DNA from: Myxococcus hansupus
Lineage (GTDB): Bacteria; Myxococcota; Myxococcia; Myxococcales; Myxococcaceae
Length of the DNA stretch: 64,000 nt
Direction of reading: 5' to 3'
Assembly (NCBI RefSeq): GCF_000280925.3
Contig: NZ_CP012109.1
Coordinates: forward strand, 4,236,501 to 4,300,500
In this document: in pieces, positions 39,994 through 56,715 of the stretch
Layout of the letters: every line of letters starts with the position of its first letter
How positions within the stretch are numbered: the first letter of the stretch is position 1
Made by a program: the position numbers and the translations under genes
The notes under the pieces: model-generated
What the model was told of the DNA's origin: nothing
What the model saw: only the letters and a program-made list of their open reading frames with translations
The model's database searches: none

Positions 39994-40348
<355 letters not shown>

Positions 40349-49851: not shown

Positions 49852-50682
49852 TCAGCGCTTCAGCGACAACCCGAGCCGGTAGACGTCCTGACCGGCCCAC
49901 CCCGCACGGCGGGCCAGCTCGGTGCTCAGCGCCTTGAGCTTCTCGCCGCGCCCGAGTCCCTCCTCCAAGGCCCGGCGCAGCTCCTCTTCGGACCAGCGCG
50001 TTTCGCCGGTGCGGCCCTCCACCAGGAGCACCACCTCGCCGCGGGCCTCTTCGGTCGCGTAGCGCGCCGCGAGCTCGGACAAGGTGCCCCGGGCGAACTC
50101 CTCGTGCAGCTTCGTCAGCTCCCGGGCCACGCAGGCGCGACGGTCCCCCCACACCTCGAGCAGGTCCGGCAGCGTCTCCGCGAGCCGACGCGGCGACTCA
50201 TAGAGCACCAGCGTGGCGGAAAGCTGCGCGACCTCCTCCAGCATGGCCCGGCGCTCGGCGCCTTTGCGCGGGACGAAGCCGAGGAAGTGGAAACGGCCCG
50301 TGGGCAAGCCCGAGGCGCTCAGCGCCGCCACCAGCGCGGTGGGCCCCGGGATGGGCACCACGTTCAGCCCCCGCTCCAACGCCTCGGCCACCAGCTTCTC
50401 GCCCGGGTCGCTGATGGCGGGACTGCCCGCGTCCGTGACGAGCGCGCAGTCGTCGCCTTCGGCGATGCGGTCGAGGATGCGCCCGGCGCGCTGCCCCTCC
50501 GCGAAGGCGGGCAGGCTCACCAGGTCCTTCCCACCAATGCCGAAGTGGTCGAGCAGCACCCGCGAGTGCCGGGTGTCCTCGCACGCGATGAAGCGCACGG
50601 CGCGCAGCGTCTCCAGCGCGCGCGTCGTGACGTCCCCCAGGTTCCCGATGGGCGTCGCCACCAGATAGAGCGTTCCAGCCAT
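49852..50682 (-). CDS. rsmI: 16S rRNA (cytidine-1402 2'-O)-methyltransferase RsmI
   Basis: 276 residues. The family core is complete: TLYLVATPIGNLGDVTTRAL, EDTRHSRVLLDHFGI, VTDAGSPAISDPGE, PIPGPTALVAALSASGLPT. RsmI belongs to the tetrapyrrole-methylase-like SAM enzymes and modifies C1402 near the ribosomal P site, tuning start-codon choice. The yraN gene ends 12 bases upstream. Confidence 0.97.
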   Translation of the reverse strand: MAGTLYLVATPIGNLGDVTTRALETLRAVRFIACEDTRHSRVLLDHFGIGGKDLVSLPAFAEGQRAGRILDRIAEGDDCALVTDAGSPAISDPGEKLVAEALERGLNVVPIPGPTALVAALSASGLPTGRFHFLGFVPRKGAERRAMLEEVAQLSATLVLYESPRRLAETLPDLLEVWGDRRACVARELTKLHEEFARGTLSELAARYATEEARGEVVLLVEGRTGETRWSEEELRRALEEGLGRGEKLKALSTELARRAGWAGQDVYRLGLSLKR

Positions 50683-50694
50683 GGCATCGTCCTC

Positions 50695-51075
50695 TCACAT
50701 CCCCGCGTCGAAGGCGCCAGGGATGTGCTCCACCGTGGCGTGCGCACCGCGCCCCACCACTGAAATCACGTCGAAGCGAAGCATCCGCCCCTGCAGCTCA
50801 TGCGCGAACAGGTAGCGCAGCGCCGCCTTCACCACCCGGCGCTGCTTCGCGAAGGACACGCTGTGAGACGGATCTCCCCAGGTCGCCGTGGAGCGCATCC
50901 GGACCTCCACGAAACACACCAGGTCCTCACGCTCCACCACGACGTCCAGCTCTCCGTAGCGGCAAGTCCAGTTACGGTGCCGGACCCGCCACCCCTGCGC
51001 CTCCAGGAAGCGGACCGCCGCCTCCTCGCCCGCGTCCCCATACGCCCGCCGCTCCCGCGGCTCCGCCCCGCCCAT
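50695..51075 (-). CDS. yraN: YraN / UPF0102 nuclease-like protein
   Basis: 126 residues from ATG 51075. The N-terminal GDAGEEAAVRFLEAQGWRVR and the core RYGELDVVVEREDLVCFVEV are the UPF0102 signature, related to restriction-endonuclease-fold Holliday-junction resolvase-like proteins. YraN is usually found next to rsmI, as here. Its enzymatic activity is unproven. Confidence 0.93.
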   Translation of the reverse strand: MGGAEPRERRAYGDAGEEAAVRFLEAQGWRVRHRNWTCRYGELDVVVEREDLVCFVEVRMRSTATWGDPSHSVSFAKQRRVVKAALRYLFAHELQGRMLRFDVISVVGRGAHATVEHIPGAFDAGM

Positions 51076-51127
51076 CCACCCTCCCCGGCGCGCCTCCTGA
51101 ACGGAGACAACCCGCCACGTTCACCTC

Positions 51128-53035
51128 TCAGACGTTAACGGGGCCGTCCGACATCTGCGCGAAGCCAGGGTGCGAGGTGACGTGCAGCACCTGAGTCAGC
51201 GTGCCCAAGTGCTTCAACATCCGGGCGATGAGGGGCAGCTTCACCTCCTCCATCCCAGAGAAGACATCCTCCAGGAGGAAGGGACGCTTCACCCGGGCGC
51301 TCGCCTTCTCCACGACCGTCATCCGCAGCGCCAGGTAGTAGAGGTCCAGGTCCTTCGCCGGCAGCTCGCCCACGGGCACCCGGCGGCCCGCGGTCAGCGC
51401 GAAGGCCCGGCCCTCGCGATCCCACTCGATGCCCTGGTAGCGCCGGTCCGTGAGCGCGGTGAGGTACTGGACGCACCGCTCCTTCAGCATCCCCTGCACC
51501 GACACCACGTCCGTGGTGAAGACATCCGCGGCCTGGGACAGCAGCGCGGGGGAGGGATCCTCCAGCGGCTCGGCAGGCGCGGCGGCGCCATCCGGACCGG
51601 GCGCGGCGGGAGCCGGCGGCGCCTTGGCCAGGACGATGGACTCCTTCACGCGCCCGATCTCACGCTCCACCTCGCGGATGTCACGCACGTAGCTGCCCTT
51701 CTGGGTCAGCTCCGCGTTGAGAGACTCCTGCTCCGCCTTGAGCGACTTCATCTGCGTGGCCGCCGCGATGTAGTCCGGATCCGCCTCGATGGCGTGCAGT
51801 TGCTCCTGCAGCTCCGTGACGCGGGCGGCGAGCAGCTCCTTGCGCTCCAACGCGGGCGCGATGGCATCCAACGCCTCCACCTCGAGCGCCTTCTGGGCCA
51901 TTCGCAGCGGCGCGGCCTCGGCTTCGTACTCTTCCAGGATCTTCTTCTCCCGGCTCTCGAAGCGGCCTTCCTTGCTGCCGTGCTGCGTCGCCTTCTGGAG
52001 ATCATCCACATAGCGAAGCGCGATGAAGGCGGCCACGCCGAAGGCCGGGATGTCGAGCAGCGCCAGGTAACGGAAAGCGCGGTCGACGCTGATGCCCAGG
52101 CCCACGGCCAGGCCCAAGAACAGCACGCCCGCGCCCAGGCCCGCCCAGAAGCCCGCGCTCTGCGTCAGCGGCGGCACGGACGCGGGACGAGACTCCTCCT
52201 CCAGCTCCCGGTCGGCGTTGAGCCGAGCCAGGGCATCGTCCCGGCGGGCAATGGCCTTTGGGTGGCGATTCACGCGGTTGACGATGTCCTGGGGGAGCCC
52301 CAGGGACTCGGGCGTGGGGGCGGCGCGCCACGCGGCCTCCGCCTCCTTGATGGCCACCTTCAACCCCTGGGTGCCCGTCAGCTTCTGTTCGGCGTCGAAG
52401 ATCTGCGAGGCCACGCCGTCGGCCTTGAACTGGAGGCCGTCCACCTCCGTGGCGGCCACCAGCTCCTGCTCCAGGGCGCGCAGCTTCGCCTCCGCGGCGG
52501 GGATGTCCTCGGCGGGCTGCACCGTGGACGCCGACGCCAGCGAGGGAAACTTGCCGGAGGCCTTCGGGTCCAGCTTCCCCGCACCGGCCGCGGCGGCCTT
52601 CCGGGGACGCTTCGAGGGGAGCTGGCCCATCTGCAGGCAGTACACCTGCTCGAAGGTGGTCCGCGGCGGCAGGCCCACCTGCCCACGAAGGAACTGGCTG
52701 ATCTCCGAGGCATCCGAGGACACGAGCTCGGGCTGCTGCGTGGACGCGTTCATCCGGTGCAACGTCCCGGAGCCGCCCAGCTCGCGCAGCACGCGGTACG
52801 TCACCCCGTCCACGCCCACCAGCGTCAGCGCGGCCTTGCCGGACTTGGCGCCTGGAGCGACGAAGGCGGCGTCACCACCGCGTCCATCCGCGAACAGCAG
52901 CGCGAGGGACAGCCCCGCCAGGGGGCTCATCTCCGCGGAGGGCGGCTTGAGGACGAGGTACCCGCTCTTGAGGGCAAAGCGCCCCGCGGGGGAGAAACCG
53001 CGGACGTTCTGGACGGCGACTTCGGCGAATTGCAT
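51128..53035 (-). CDS. YhaN/SMC-like coiled-coil protein with transmembrane hairpin and degraded ATPase motifs
   Basis: 635 residues. The N-terminus (MQFAEVAVQNVRGFSPAGRF) lines up with the first strands of RecF/SbcC/YhaN-type ATPases. Where the Walker A loop (GPNEAGKST) should be, it reads LKPPSAEMSPLAG, lacking Gly-Lys-Ser/Thr. Coiled coils (about 195-290 and 375-480) flank two adjacent membrane helices (GFWAGLGAGVLFLGLAVGLG and FRYLALLDIPAFGVAAFIAL). Near the C-terminus, LDLYYLALRM sits where the ABC signature normally is, but without its Ser-x-Gly. FLLEDVFSGMEE and VTSHPGF resemble the Walker B/D-loop and H-loop. It looks like a membrane-inserted pseudo-ATPase. Confidence 0.72.
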   Translation of the reverse strand: MQFAEVAVQNVRGFSPAGRFALKSGYLVLKPPSAEMSPLAGLSLALLFADGRGGDAAFVAPGAKSGKAALTLVGVDGVTYRVLRELGGSGTLHRMNASTQQPELVSSDASEISQFLRGQVGLPPRTTFEQVYCLQMGQLPSKRPRKAAAAGAGKLDPKASGKFPSLASASTVQPAEDIPAAEAKLRALEQELVAATEVDGLQFKADGVASQIFDAEQKLTGTQGLKVAIKEAEAAWRAAPTPESLGLPQDIVNRVNRHPKAIARRDDALARLNADRELEEESRPASVPPLTQSAGFWAGLGAGVLFLGLAVGLGISVDRAFRYLALLDIPAFGVAAFIALRYVDDLQKATQHGSKEGRFESREKKILEEYEAEAAPLRMAQKALEVEALDAIAPALERKELLAARVTELQEQLHAIEADPDYIAAATQMKSLKAEQESLNAELTQKGSYVRDIREVEREIGRVKESIVLAKAPPAPAAPGPDGAAAPAEPLEDPSPALLSQAADVFTTDVVSVQGMLKERCVQYLTALTDRRYQGIEWDREGRAFALTAGRRVPVGELPAKDLDLYYLALRMTVVEKASARVKRPFLLEDVFSGMEEVKLPLIARMLKHLGTLTQVLHVTSHPGFAQMSDGPVNV

Positions 53036-53058
53036 GGCTCGCGCATGTTAGCGCGAAT

Positions 53059-53094
53059 GAAAAAAGGAGCGTCCTGGATTGGACGCTCCTTTTC
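53059..53094 (-). terminator. Intrinsic terminator of the rpsP-rplS operon
   Basis: On the minus strand, AAAAGGAGCGTCC and GGACGCTCC pair perfectly around a short loop, followed by TTTTTTC. It begins 22 bases after the rplS stop. The A/T-rich tails on both sides make it potentially bidirectional. Confidence 0.95.
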
Positions 53095-53116
53095 ACTGCG
53101 AAAGCGCGGGAAGCGC

Positions 53117-53506
53117 TCAGGAGGCCGAGGCGGCCTTCTTGGAGGCCTTCGCGTTCGGCTCCTCGAGCACGTCGACGCGGGCGGCCTTGCCCTTCAGATC
53201 GCGGAGGTAGAACAGGCGCTTGCGGTTCACGTCACCGCGCGACAGGACCTCGATCTTCTCGTAGCGGGGGCTGTGCAGGGGGAACACGCGCTCCACGCCG
53301 ACGCCGAAGGAGAGCTTGCGCACCGTGAAGGTGGCGCGGTGGCTGCCCTTCGTCTTCCGGATGACGATGCCCTCGAACGCCTGCACGCGCTCCTTCTCGC
53401 CCTCCTTGACCTTCCAGTGGACGCGCACGGAGTCACCGGTGCTGAACGTGGTGACATCCTGGCGAAGGAACTTGGCCTCGATGTGCTGAATGGCGGCGTG
53501 GCGCAT
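53117..53506 (-). CDS. rplS: 50S ribosomal protein L19
   Basis: 129 residues from ATG 53506 with GGAG 8 bases upstream. Recognisable by FSTGDSVRVHWKVKEGEKER, QAFEGIVIRKTKGSH and VFPLHSPRYEKIEVLSRGDV. It sits at the 30S/50S interface. The C-terminus carries a Lys/Ala-rich extension (EEPNAKASKKAASAS) beyond the usual end. Last gene of the rpsP-khpA-rimM-trmD-rplS operon. Confidence 0.98.
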   Translation of the reverse strand: MRHAAIQHIEAKFLRQDVTTFSTGDSVRVHWKVKEGEKERVQAFEGIVIRKTKGSHRATFTVRKLSFGVGVERVFPLHSPRYEKIEVLSRGDVNRKRLFYLRDLKGKAARVDVLEEPNAKASKKAASAS

Positions 53507-53625
53507 GACGAACTCCGGAAAAACTTTGAACTGACGCGATGGTCGCGTGAAAGAGCGGGCCGTACTAACAGAGAGAGCGGTGTCGGACAAGCCCTGATGA
53601 TCCAACCTGCTAGCAACGCTCAGGG

Positions 53626-54369
53626 TTACAGCTCTTCCTCCCGGCGGGCCAGAAGTTTCTGGTCGGCCTTGGACAACTCCACGCGGGCGTAGAGGTCCGG
53701 GCGGCGTGCCTGAGTAAGCACCAATGACTTCCAACGGCGCCACCGGGCAATCCGGGCGTGGTCGCCGGACTGGAGGGCGGCGGGCACCTCGACCCCTCGG
53801 AACACAGGCGGGCGCGTGTACTGCGGGTGCTCCAGCAGGCCTTCCTCGAAGCTCTCGGTGACGGACGAGTCCACGTTGCCGAGCACCCCGGGCACCAGCC
53901 GCGCCACCGCGTCCACCACCGTCATCGCGGCCAGCTCACCGCCGGTGAGGACGAAGTCTCCCAGGGACAGCTCACCATCGAGGTGGGCCATCACCCGCTC
54001 GTCGACACCCTCATAGCGGCCGCACACCAGGATGAGGCCCGCCTCGTGGCGCACCAGCTCCCGCGCGGTGGCCTGCGTGAAGGCCGGCCCCCGCGGACTC
54101 ATGAGCAGCGCCCTGGCTCCCGGCAGCCGCCCCTTCGCCGCTTCGATCGCTGAAACCAGCGGCTCGGGCTTCATCACCATGCCGGCGCCACCACCGTAGG
54201 GCGCGTCGTCGGTGACGCGGTGCTTGCCCTCGGCGTACTCGCGGATGTCGGTGATGGTGGCGGAGAGGAGACCCTTCTCCTGGGCCTTCCCGAGGATGCT
54301 CGCCCCCAGGTAGCCGGACACCATGCCGGGGAACAGCGTGAGGATCTCCACCGGATACGGTGGGCTCAT
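53626..54369 (-). CDS. trmD: tRNA (guanine-37 N1)-methyltransferase
   Basis: 247 residues. The trefoil-knot SPOUT fold is shown by [42 protein letters not shown] and [20 protein letters not shown]. TrmD adds the m1G37 next to the anticodon and prevents +1 frameshifting. Its start overlaps the rimM stop by four bases (ATGA), so the two are translationally coupled. Confidence 0.98.
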
Positions 54370-54929
54370 TCCGCGTCCTCCGGGCCTCCACCCGATTCGG
54401 CGCCCTTGCGGCCCGTGTCCACGTACTCGGGAGGCTGGATCACGATGCGCCCCGCGGCGATGTCCACCGAGGGCACGAACTCGTCCGCGAAGGGCACCAC
54501 CAGCTCGTCACGGCCCTGCGCCCGGATGACCAGGTTGGGGACCTCGCCGGTGGCCCAGATCTCCTCCACGCGGCCCAGCGCGTTGCCCGCGGCATCCACC
54601 GCCTCGAGCCCCACCAGGTCCCCCTGGAAGAACTCTCCCTCGGCGGGAGGCTCCAGGTCCTCGCGGAAGACGAACACCTTGGCGCCCACGAGCGCCTCCG
54701 CGTCGTTGCGCGACGCCACGCCTTCGAGGACCACGATGTCCTCCTTCGGCGTGGGCCGCAGCCCTTCCAGGCGCAGCAACTTCTCCTCGCCCGCGCGCGT
54801 CCGCACGAAGATGCGCTCGACGGTGTCGAGCGTCTCGGAGGACGGGTCCAACGCGCGGATGGCCACCTCACCGCGCAAACCATGCGCACGCGCGACGTAG
54901 CCCAGTTCGAGGTAGGGGCTGGCCTTCAC
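54366..54929 (-). CDS. rimM: 16S rRNA processing protein RimM
   Basis: 187 residues from GTG 54929, overlapping the upstream KH gene by four bases. It has the N-terminal RimM barrel ([20 protein letters not shown]) and a C-terminal PRC-like barrel ([19 protein letters not shown]...[20 protein letters not shown]). It assists 30S head assembly together with S19. The C-terminal tail past VIQPPEYVD is an extra ~18-residue acidic extension. Confidence 0.96.
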
Positions 54930-55213
54930 TGCGTGGAGTCCGGAACGGCCGCCGGTGCGCCTGCCGCATTGCGCCGGTCGTCGAGGATCTCCAGTCGCAC
55001 CTTCTGCCCGGACTTCTGGGCGGCGGCGTTGAGCAGCGTCCGGAGGGCATTCACGGTGCGCCCATCACGTCCGATGACCTTGCCGACGTCCTCGGCGGAG
55101 ACCTTCAGCTCATAGAGCCGGGCCCCTTCCGCCTCGGACAAACGCAGGCTGACCTGGTCAGGATGATCGACCAGGGCCCGCGCCAGATAGGTAAGAAGCT
55201 GCTCCACGTCCAC
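54926..55213 (-). CDS. khpA: KH-domain RNA-binding protein KhpA
   Basis: 95 residues from GTG 55213. It has a single KH domain: LYELKVSAEDVGKVIGRDGR (with the GxxG loop IGRDG) and NALRTLLNAAAQKSG. KhpA (YlqC) is a small RNA chaperone in many bacteria, typically between rpsP and rimM as here. It carries a short C-terminal Ala/Pro tail. Confidence 0.93.
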   Translation of the reverse strand: MDVEQLLTYLARALVDHPDQVSLRLSEAEGARLYELKVSAEDVGKVIGRDGRTVNALRTLLNAAAQKSGQKVRLEILDDRRNAAGAPAAVPDSTQ

Positions 55214-55224
55214 TATGGCGTGGC

Positions 55225-55485
55225 TCAGACCGCGGGAGCGGGCTTGGCCTTACCGGCGACCTTGATGAGGTCCGCGACCGTCTCGGACGGCGTCGCGCCA
55301 GTCTTCAGCCAGTAGTTGAGGCGCTCCTCGTTGAACTCCACCTTGGGCGGCTCCAGGTTCGGGTCGTACGCACCCACGGCCTCGATGAACTTGCCGTCCC
55401 GGGGATTGCGGGAATCGGTGGCGACCACGTGGTAGTACGGCTTCTTCTTGGCGCCCGCGCGGGCAAGACGGAGGACAACGGCCAT
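55225..55485 (-). CDS. rpsP: 30S ribosomal protein S16
   Basis: 86 residues from ATG 55485. The S16 pattern is complete: VVLRLARAGAKKKPYYHVVA, DSRNPRDGKFIEAVGAYDP, ERLNYWLKTGATPSETVADL. First gene of the operon, 48 bases behind the promoter at 55533. Confidence 0.98.
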   Translation of the reverse strand: MAVVLRLARAGAKKKPYYHVVATDSRNPRDGKFIEAVGAYDPNLEPPKVEFNEERLNYWLKTGATPSETVADLIKVAGKAKPAPAV

Positions 55486-55532
55486 TGAATGCTCTCCAAC
55501 GAACAGGAAACGTCTTAGGAAAGGGGTGGCGC

Positions 55533-55561
55533 TCTTAACGCCGCTCCCGCTGGATTGTCAA
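55533..55561 (-). promoter_or_regulatory. Sigma-70 promoter of the rpsP operon
   Basis: On the minus strand, a perfect -35 TTGACA (55556-55561) and -10 TTAAGA (55533-55538) are 17 bases apart. They lie between the rlmN stop and the S16 start, and give a leader of about 40 bases. Confidence 0.75.
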
Positions 55562-55575
55562 GGAAGCTCGGGACC

Positions 55576-56715
55576 TTATGTCTGAGTCTCGGCCCCGGCT
55601 TGCGTCTCGCCGCGATTGGCGAGCTGCCCGCAGGCGCCGGCGATGTCCCGGCCCCGATTCCTGCGGATGTATGCGGCGACATGGCCGTCCGCGAGGATGG
55701 CGCGAAACTCCTCCGCGCGCTCCTCGCCAGTGGTGTGGAACCCCAAGCCGGGATTCTCGTTGTAGGGGATCAGGTTCACCTTCACCGGGATGCCCTTGAG
55801 CAGTTCGATGAGCCGGTGCGCGTCCTCGTCCGCGTCGTTGAAGCCCTTGATGAGGACGTACTCGAAGGTGATGCGGCGGCCCTGACGCAGCGGGAACGTG
55901 CGGCAGGCGTCCAGCAGGGCCGCGATGTTCCACTTGCGGTTGACGGGCATCGTCTTGCTGCGCTGCTCGTCGGTGCTGGCGTTGAGGGAGATGGCCAGCT
56001 TGACGTCCGTCTCCTTGCCGAAGCGCTCGATCATCGGCACCAGGCCCACGGTGGAGACCGTGATGTGCCGGTGGCTGAAGTTGGGGCCATCCTGGGACTG
56101 GAGGATGGCGAGCGCCGTCTTGAGGTTCTCGAAGTTGTGGAGCGGCTCGCCCATCCCCATGAAGACCAGGTTGGAGAGCGGGCGGAGCGTCTCGTGGCCT
56201 TCGTTCTTGCGGACCTCGCGGTTCACCGCGTGGACCTGGGCGACGATCTCGCTGGCGGTGAGGTTGCGCTTGAGCCCCATGGTGCCCGTCATGCAGAAGC
56301 TGCAGGCCATGGCGCAACCCACCTGGGTGGACACGCACAGCGTCCGGCGGTCCTCGGCGGGCATGTAGACGGACTCGATGAAGCGCCCGTCCCGCGTCTT
56401 CCACCGGTACTTGATGGTGCCGTCGATGCTGCGCTGCTCGAGGTCCTTCACCAGGGGGATGATCTCCGCCCGGGCCCGCAGCTTCTCCCGCAGGGCCTTG
56501 GAGAGGTCCGTCATCTCGTCGAACGAGGTGGCACCGCGCTGGTGCAGCCAGCGGTAGAGCTGCGGGGCACGGAAGGCGCGCTCCCCCAGCTCCTCGGTGA
56601 CGAAGCGCGACAGCGCCTCCAGGGACAGGCTGGCCACGTCCACCAGCTTGGGAGGCGCGGGAGCCGGCAGCGGCTCGGTAACTGGCAGGGAGGTGGCGGA
56701 GAGAGTCTCTGACAT
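55576..56715 (-). CDS. rlmN: Dual-specificity 23S rRNA A2503 / tRNA A37 methyltransferase RlmN
   Basis: 379 residues from ATG 56715. Radical-SAM cluster in CAMACSFCMTGTMGL, followed by NLVFMGMGEPLHNFEN and LAISLNASTDEQRSKTMPVN; the methyl-carrying cysteine lies in DIAGACGQLA near the C-terminus. RlmN adds C2-methyl to A2503 of 23S rRNA and A37 of some tRNAs. The first ~25 residues form a Pro/Ala-rich extension. Single gene between ndk and rpsP. Confidence 0.97.
   Translation of the reverse strand: MSETLSATSLPVTEPLPAPAPPKLVDVASLSLEALSRFVTEELGERAFRAPQLYRWLHQRGATSFDEMTDLSKALREKLRARAEIIPLVKDLEQRSIDGTIKYRWKTRDGRFIESVYMPAEDRRTLCVSTQVGCAMACSFCMTGTMGLKRNLTASEIVAQVHAVNREVRKNEGHETLRPLSNLVFMGMGEPLHNFENLKTALAILQSQDGPNFSHRHITVSTVGLVPMIERFGKETDVKLAISLNASTDEQRSKTMPVNRKWNIAALLDACRTFPLRQGRRITFEYVLIKGFNDADEDAHRLIELLKGIPVKVNLIPYNENPGLGFHTTGEERAEEFRAILADGHVAAYIRRNRGRDIAGACGQLANRGETQAGAETQT

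Follow-up and report, generated by a model that had tools for sequence, protein, structure and literature searches.

A putative membrane-tethered pseudo-ATPase of the Rad50/SbcC/YhaN type encoded beside rplS in Myxococcus hansupus

The window, by which we mean the whole stretch of 64,000 nucleotides of Myxococcus hansupus that was analyzed, contains a gene (here termed gene X) that most likely encodes a membrane-tethered pseudo-ATPase of the Rad50/SbcC/YhaN type, an assessment that covers both the pseudo-ATPase and the membrane-tether parts of the proposal. X is a phylum-wide variant of the Rad50/SbcC/YhaN clan for which neither Pfam nor NCBIfam holds a model. The protein probably serves as a nucleotide-independent scaffold.

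A conserved gene among ribosomal and translation genes

The open reading frame that the earlier note had described is present where it was placed, on the reverse strand, and its features are collected in Table 1. The genome of the window is one contig of 9,490,432 bases; a search with the single X sequence at E ≤ 10 gives one match in it, and a profile of 21 rows (A1) counts three. The protein is not recognized by any model of Pfam or NCBIfam, the best matches (E 0.22 and E 0.029, respectively) both lying in coiled-coil stretches. X is an open gene under purifying selection. When the window gene was compared with seven others by the Nei-Gojobori method, dN/dS was 0.10-0.29 overall and 0.07-0.24 for the C-lobe of the head; for residues 26-45, which surround the former P-loop, it was 0-0.13 in five of the seven comparisons and 0.42 and 0.58 in the remaining two (L023 and L055).

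Table 1 Features of gene X, its surroundings and a YhaN-type protein of the same genome.
Feature	Position	Strand	Basis
rplS (ribosomal protein L19), upstream neighbour	53117..53506	(-)	Pfam Ribosomal_L19
Terminator-like hairpin with U-run, between rplS and X	53061..53094	(-)	-23.7 kcal/mol, z -6.55
-10-like TAACAT, 9 bases before ATG	53045..53050	(-)	TAnnnT recurrence among orthologues
Gene X	51128..53035	(-)	635 aa, ATG start, TGA stop
N-lobe of putative ABC head, residues 1-145	52601..53035	(-)	end-to-end alignment with f11 orthologues
Former Walker A position, residues 31-38, PPSAEMSP	52922..52945	(-)	aligned with GxGK[ST] of 9/9 f11 sequences
First coiled-coil arm, residues about 178-285	52181..52504	(-)	AF2: long helices, block pLDDT mostly 70-88
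Putative transmembrane hairpin, residues about 297-343, LLDIPAFG in second helix	52007..52147	(-)	hydropathy
Second coiled-coil arm, residues about 345-471	51623..52003	(-)	long helices in AF2 model
C-lobe of putative ABC head, residues about 495-635	51131..51553	(-)	family profile vs Rad50 3qf7; hhalign
Former signature position, residues 557-566, ELPAKDLDLY	51338..51367	(-)	aligned with Rad50 LSGGERALIS
Walker B-like FLLED, residues 586-590	51266..51280	(-)	aligned with FFIDE of Rad50 3qf7
H622 of TSH, facing Rad50 H-loop His	51170..51172	(-)	3qf7 alignment
yraN (UPF0102), downstream neighbour	50695..51075	(-)	Pfam UPF0102
YhaN-type ATPase of same genome	L088:2197-5427 (G000:C1, about 8.435 Mb)		AAA_27, E 2e-26

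The single-sequence search detected X in 40 of 41 genomes (counting that of the window) and in all 15 genera represented. With profile A1, 169 of the phylum's 195 genomes gave matches at E ≤ 0.001, as did 135 of the 149 that are more complete; four of the 169, with weak scores (G050, G054, G166, and G170; 2e-16 to 1e-4), probably contribute paralogous ATPases. A plasmid-borne gene was considered and rejected, as 72,556 plasmid records contained no match (E 1e-5). One record, BNCN01000016.1 (L031), is titled Comamonas sp. KCTC 72670 and carries an X that is 95 percent identical to that of the window in the same gene order; it is probably mislabelled. At another locus (L071, genome G183), the orthologue match contains one in-frame TGA.

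Around X, the window encodes rplS, trmD, rimM, a khpA-type gene, rpsP, yraN, and rsmI. This ribosomal and translation neighbourhood, pointed out previously, follows a conserved order, in which rplS, yraN, and rsmI are the conserved neighbours across 37 loci. In 32 of these, rplS lies within 700 bases upstream of X; among the five others, two are near a contig edge (L064 and L113) and three have no rplS match there (L100, L116, and L117). A same-strand YraN match occurs within 800 bases downstream in 21 of the 37 loci. Elsewhere in the window, three tandem tRNA-Met (cat) genes are found at 39994-40348 with an equal spacing of 140 bases.

Within the window's own family (f1, which includes Myxococcus and Pyxidicoccus), the profile finds no X in genus g37, represented by three reduced genomes of 2.1-2.7 Mb (L133, L134, and L135), and in all three yraN and rsmI directly follow rplS, as read by eye. 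X is also absent from the outer lineages L136, L137, and L138; the frame after rplS in L136 and L137 is presumably rnhB, judged by its motif. These arrangements indicate that X can be lost cleanly, and the gene seems to have been inserted into a gene order older than itself.

X may also be transcribed separately. A stem GGAGCGTCC followed by a T-run, corresponding to the hairpin between rplS and X, is present in the upstream regions of 12/12 f1 genes; a consensus terminator scan did not list this hairpin, probably because its T-run pairs into the stem. Closer to the start codon, 24 of 54 orthologues have a TAnnnT element whose last base lies 5-14 bases ahead of it, vs 9 of 216 control windows. 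By family, it occurs in 12/12 f1, 1/1 f2, 3/3 f5, 2/2 f6, and 6/36 other sequences, the f1 copies not being independent of one another. A sigma-70 consensus scan of positions 50500-55600 returned no promoter. From these recurrences, we consider that X probably has its own, nearly leaderless promoter in the relatives of the window, and in the window's family the neighbours of X may not share its transcription. If so, the adjacency of X to translation genes need not mean a shared function.

The head and its eroded motifs

The relationship of X to ABC ATPases is visible in its C-lobe. Searched alone against the PDB, the protein matches residues 238-349 of Rad50 (3qf7) with its residues 515-627 (E 0.0012), and in the C-lobe a profile of the orthologues without P-loop finds a number of different Rad50 sequences, the best again being 3qf7 (E 9.9e-13). 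When this profile was compared by hhalign with five intact SbcC/YhaN-type proteins, the match reached 98.5 percent (E 1.8e-15). The hhalign comparisons with intact ATPases covered the C-terminal part only and left the N-lobe unaligned, for the window's group and for family f11 alike. The N-lobe of the window protein alone is not recognized by Pfam. It is tied to ABC proteins through its orthologues only: the profile of f11 aligns with that of the orthologues without P-loop end to end (624 columns, E 3.5e-93), it finds Rad50 N-lobe matches down to 2.2e-7, and four of five f11 proteins tested score above the Pfam cut-off for AAA_23, the fifth (L059) staying below with 23.5 vs 27 bits. From the orthology with f11 and the Rad50/SbcC/YhaN matches of the C-lobe, the head of X is therefore, on sequence evidence, an ABC head of Rad50 type by descent, which bears out the ATPase plan (RecF/SbcC/YhaN) proposed earlier. 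Neither AlphaFold2 model resolved the head: for the whole protein together with eight close orthologues, the mean pLDDT was 61.0 with residues 1-69 under 50, and for the last 196 residues modelled separately it was 49.7.

We tabulated the ATP-binding motifs in 54 orthologues, which represent 20 families of the phylum (12 sequences come from f1 and 42 from others), a set that includes a few fragments at contig ends, L070 and L081 among them. Walker A is intact in 9 of the 54, all of them from f11, and absent from 45. In f11, the residues facing PPSAEMSP of the window protein read GGSGSGKT, GPSGAGKS, and similar, with A replacing the first G in 2 of 9. The register that the earlier note had assigned to the P-loop is thus exact, and intact P-loops at a different position, which would have spoken against the earlier interpretation, were not seen: those that exist stand at the same position, and the pattern [AG]xxxxGK[ST] occurs nowhere in the whole proteins of the other 45 sequences. 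A uniform loss of the P-loop among orthologues holds for all sampled families except f11, which keeps it in 9/9 sequences. The sequence facing the former P-loop differs between families, and no motif is visible in it.

The signature has been lost more widely. At its position the window protein reads ELPAKDLDLY, with LPAKD facing LSGGE of Rad50 3qf7. Ser-x-Gly is gone there, as had been noted, and is found in 0/53 sequences reaching the position, f11 included (L081 is cut off before it). The Walker B-like FLLED does align with Rad50 FFIDE, with its two acids swapped: they are E589 and D590, reversed with respect to Rad50 (DE to ED), and the functional order of an Asp followed by the catalytic Glu does not occur in the window protein. 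A Walker B-like pattern of three hydrophobic residues, D or E, and then D, E, or N, which is strict and misses variants such as YLVDDD, was detected in 9/9 f11, 12/12 f1, and 14/32 other sequences reaching the position, and is missing in 18/32. The TSH that had been read as an H-loop places H622 opposite the H-loop His of Rad50; this His is present in 12/12 f1 sequences and in 0/39 others reaching the position. The likeness to a D-loop is weak only (SGME vs SSLD). The earlier view of an otherwise preserved ATPase is therefore too generous, given the missing Walker B pattern in 18/32 sequences outside f1 and f11 and the absence of the H-loop His outside f1.

An ABC head is very unlikely to have acquired a new Walker A in precisely the correct place, and we therefore infer that the P-loop was lost, not gained. 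The signature, being absent from all 53 sequences including those of f11, would therefore have been lost before the sampled family spread, with the P-loop following later in all sampled families but f11. The ATP-binding parts of X appear to have been worn away stepwise while the protein stayed under selection. In a gene tree of 47 rows, computed with the P-loop columns removed, the P-loop bearers of f11 form one group (100/100), next to which stands the single row of f10, which has no P-loop (99/99). This f10 sequence (L060, genome G163) comes from the class of the window and groups with f11 of another class despite having no P-loop; its position may reflect transfer, misplacement, or an early split. 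A root elsewhere than on the f11 branch would entail at least two P-loop losses. A marker tree (five neighbour proteins, with E. coli as outgroup) does not resolve the deep backbone, and the P-loop may have been lost once or several times.

Arms, membrane hairpin, and comparison with known proteins

The two transmembrane segments that had been described as splitting the coiled coil correspond to hydrophobic stretches at residues ~299-317 and ~325-343 (Kyte-Doolittle means of 2.07 and 1.69), located between stretches of long helices. Using loose thresholds, the first segment (≥ 1.6) is found in 52 of the 54 orthologues, the second (≥ 1.2) in 51, and both in 49; the stricter requirement of two segments ≥ 1.6, at any place in the sequence, leaves 24/54.

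A transmembrane hairpin between the arms is usual for YhaN, and we observed it in the one AAA_27 protein of the same genome listed in Table 1 (L088), which has hydrophobic segments at residues 508-526 and 529-547 of a 1096-aa ORF and starts with an intact P-loop, GPNEAGKS. The hairpin therefore belongs to a shared plan and is not an oddity of X. A 669-aa frame just upstream of the YhaN-type gene has no Pfam match at 1e-5.

Compared with Rad50/SbcC (AAA_23; PDB 3qf7), X shares the sequence of the C-lobe, that of the N-lobe through its f11 orthologues, and the same order of N-lobe, arm, turn, arm, and C-lobe. The apex of Rad50 bears a zinc hook. X differs in having a hydrophobic transmembrane hairpin between its arms at the zinc-hook site, in lacking Walker A and the signature, and in having no SbcD/Mre11 nuclease gene among its neighbours scanned in the window. 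With YhaN-type proteins (AAA_27), it has in common the mid-protein transmembrane hairpin and a signature-helix consensus, RDLxYLALRL, resembling RDQLFLALRL, but it is shorter (635 vs 1077 aa) and without P-loop or signature. AAA_27 gives no match for the window protein, and one of five f11 proteins matches it at E 0.0037, below the Pfam cut-off. The likeness to SMC, RecN, and RecF is one of general plan, SMC_N matching five of five f11 proteins, each under the cut-off; these groups differ from X, which has a membrane hairpin between its arms and no Walker A or signature, and the window protein itself matches no Pfam or NCBIfam model. A limited keyword search of the literature gave no paper treating YhaN together with Rad50, or with SbcC and transmembrane coiled coils, and none on rplS and trmD of Myxococcus xanthus or on pseudoenzymes among bacterial ABC ATPases.

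A proposed head without nucleotide at the membrane

Taken as a whole, the explanation that we favour, with more confidence than doubt, is a membrane-tethered ABC pseudo-ATPase acting as a nucleotide-independent scaffold. Both ends of one X chain would come together in the cytoplasm as a Rad50-like head, and two coiled-coil arms of about 100-130 residues would hold this head away from the inner membrane, where the transmembrane hairpin would replace the zinc hook of Rad50 and anchor the apex. As its motifs suggest, the head would no longer bind ATP and could instead offer a membrane-bound platform for docking or scaffolding that works without nucleotide, for a partner of the kind handled by the other heads of the clan, i.e. 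DNA, a nuclease, or a second ABC head.

According to a different proposal, X would pair as the inactive member with an active Rad50/YhaN-type ATPase, e.g. the one encoded at about 8.435 Mb, and would regulate or anchor it. ABC heads work as dimers, and the same genome does encode an intact YhaN-type protein that also has a mid-protein transmembrane hairpin; however, X could complete neither composite site, because Walker A and the signature are both lost, and the window shows no ATPase gene next to X, whose conserved neighbours are rplS, yraN, and rsmI. We regard such a pairing as unlikely.

More doubtful still is a version in which the N-lobe loop has been rebuilt and, together with the residues retained in Walker B and the H-loop, still allows X to bind a nucleotide or some other phosphate ligand. 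The loop that replaces the P-loop varies between families with no visible motif, and Walker B and the H-loop are also gone in several of them, which weighs against retained binding even though within f1 the stretch of residues 26-45 is conserved (dN/dS is low in five of the seven comparisons) and both H622 and the Walker B-like acids occur in 12/12 sequences. In that family, the acids and the aligned His could represent residual binding.

The remaining proposals can be set aside almost entirely. A coiled-coil membrane protein resembling ABC ATPases by chance would agree with the missing Pfam and NCBIfam matches and with the mostly helical nature of the confident AlphaFold parts, but hardly with a Rad50 match that lies in the globular C-lobe and not in the coils and that keeps the Walker B and signature positions in register, or with orthologues carrying a P-loop at the right place. 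Nor is there much to recommend a decaying gene on its way out, as might be read from the eroding catalytic motifs and the three g37 genomes of the same family without X, since the frame is open in the window and its relatives, its place is conserved, and the selection data contradict decay for the window's lineage.

A defence system was also considered and rejected, the neighbours of X being housekeeping genes. In PADLOC, the window protein gave one weak coiled-coil match (LmuB, E 0.082), and for two f11 proteins there were weak matches to 42 and 51 different families; most of these fell on the P-loop stretch, and the best reached 2.6e-10.

Under the favoured reading of X as a membrane-tethered pseudo-ATPase, a wider scenario can be sketched, which we offer tentatively and hold to be less than even in probability. 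Across the phylum, X would form one family of Rad50-like pseudo-ATPases tethered to the membrane. Loss of the signature would predate the spread of this family, Walker A would have disappeared afterwards, perhaps repeatedly, and f11 would have remained halfway, with P-loop and Walker B kept, and signature and H-loop gone. Such a family would constitute a new class of membrane scaffold, derived from a switched-off motor of the SMC clan whose shape was kept, e.g. to attach a repair complex or the nucleoid to the inner membrane.

Proteins of the SMC/Rad50 type are regarded as ATP-driven. X is a conserved, selected, and phylum-wide member whose ATP site has apparently eroded in an order that can still be read, f11 being a living intermediate in which the gene directly follows rplS in 9/9 loci; it raises the question of what such a head does without nucleotide. 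X would also place a Rad50-like head on the membrane of predatory, multicellular bacteria, encoded beside a ribosomal operon.
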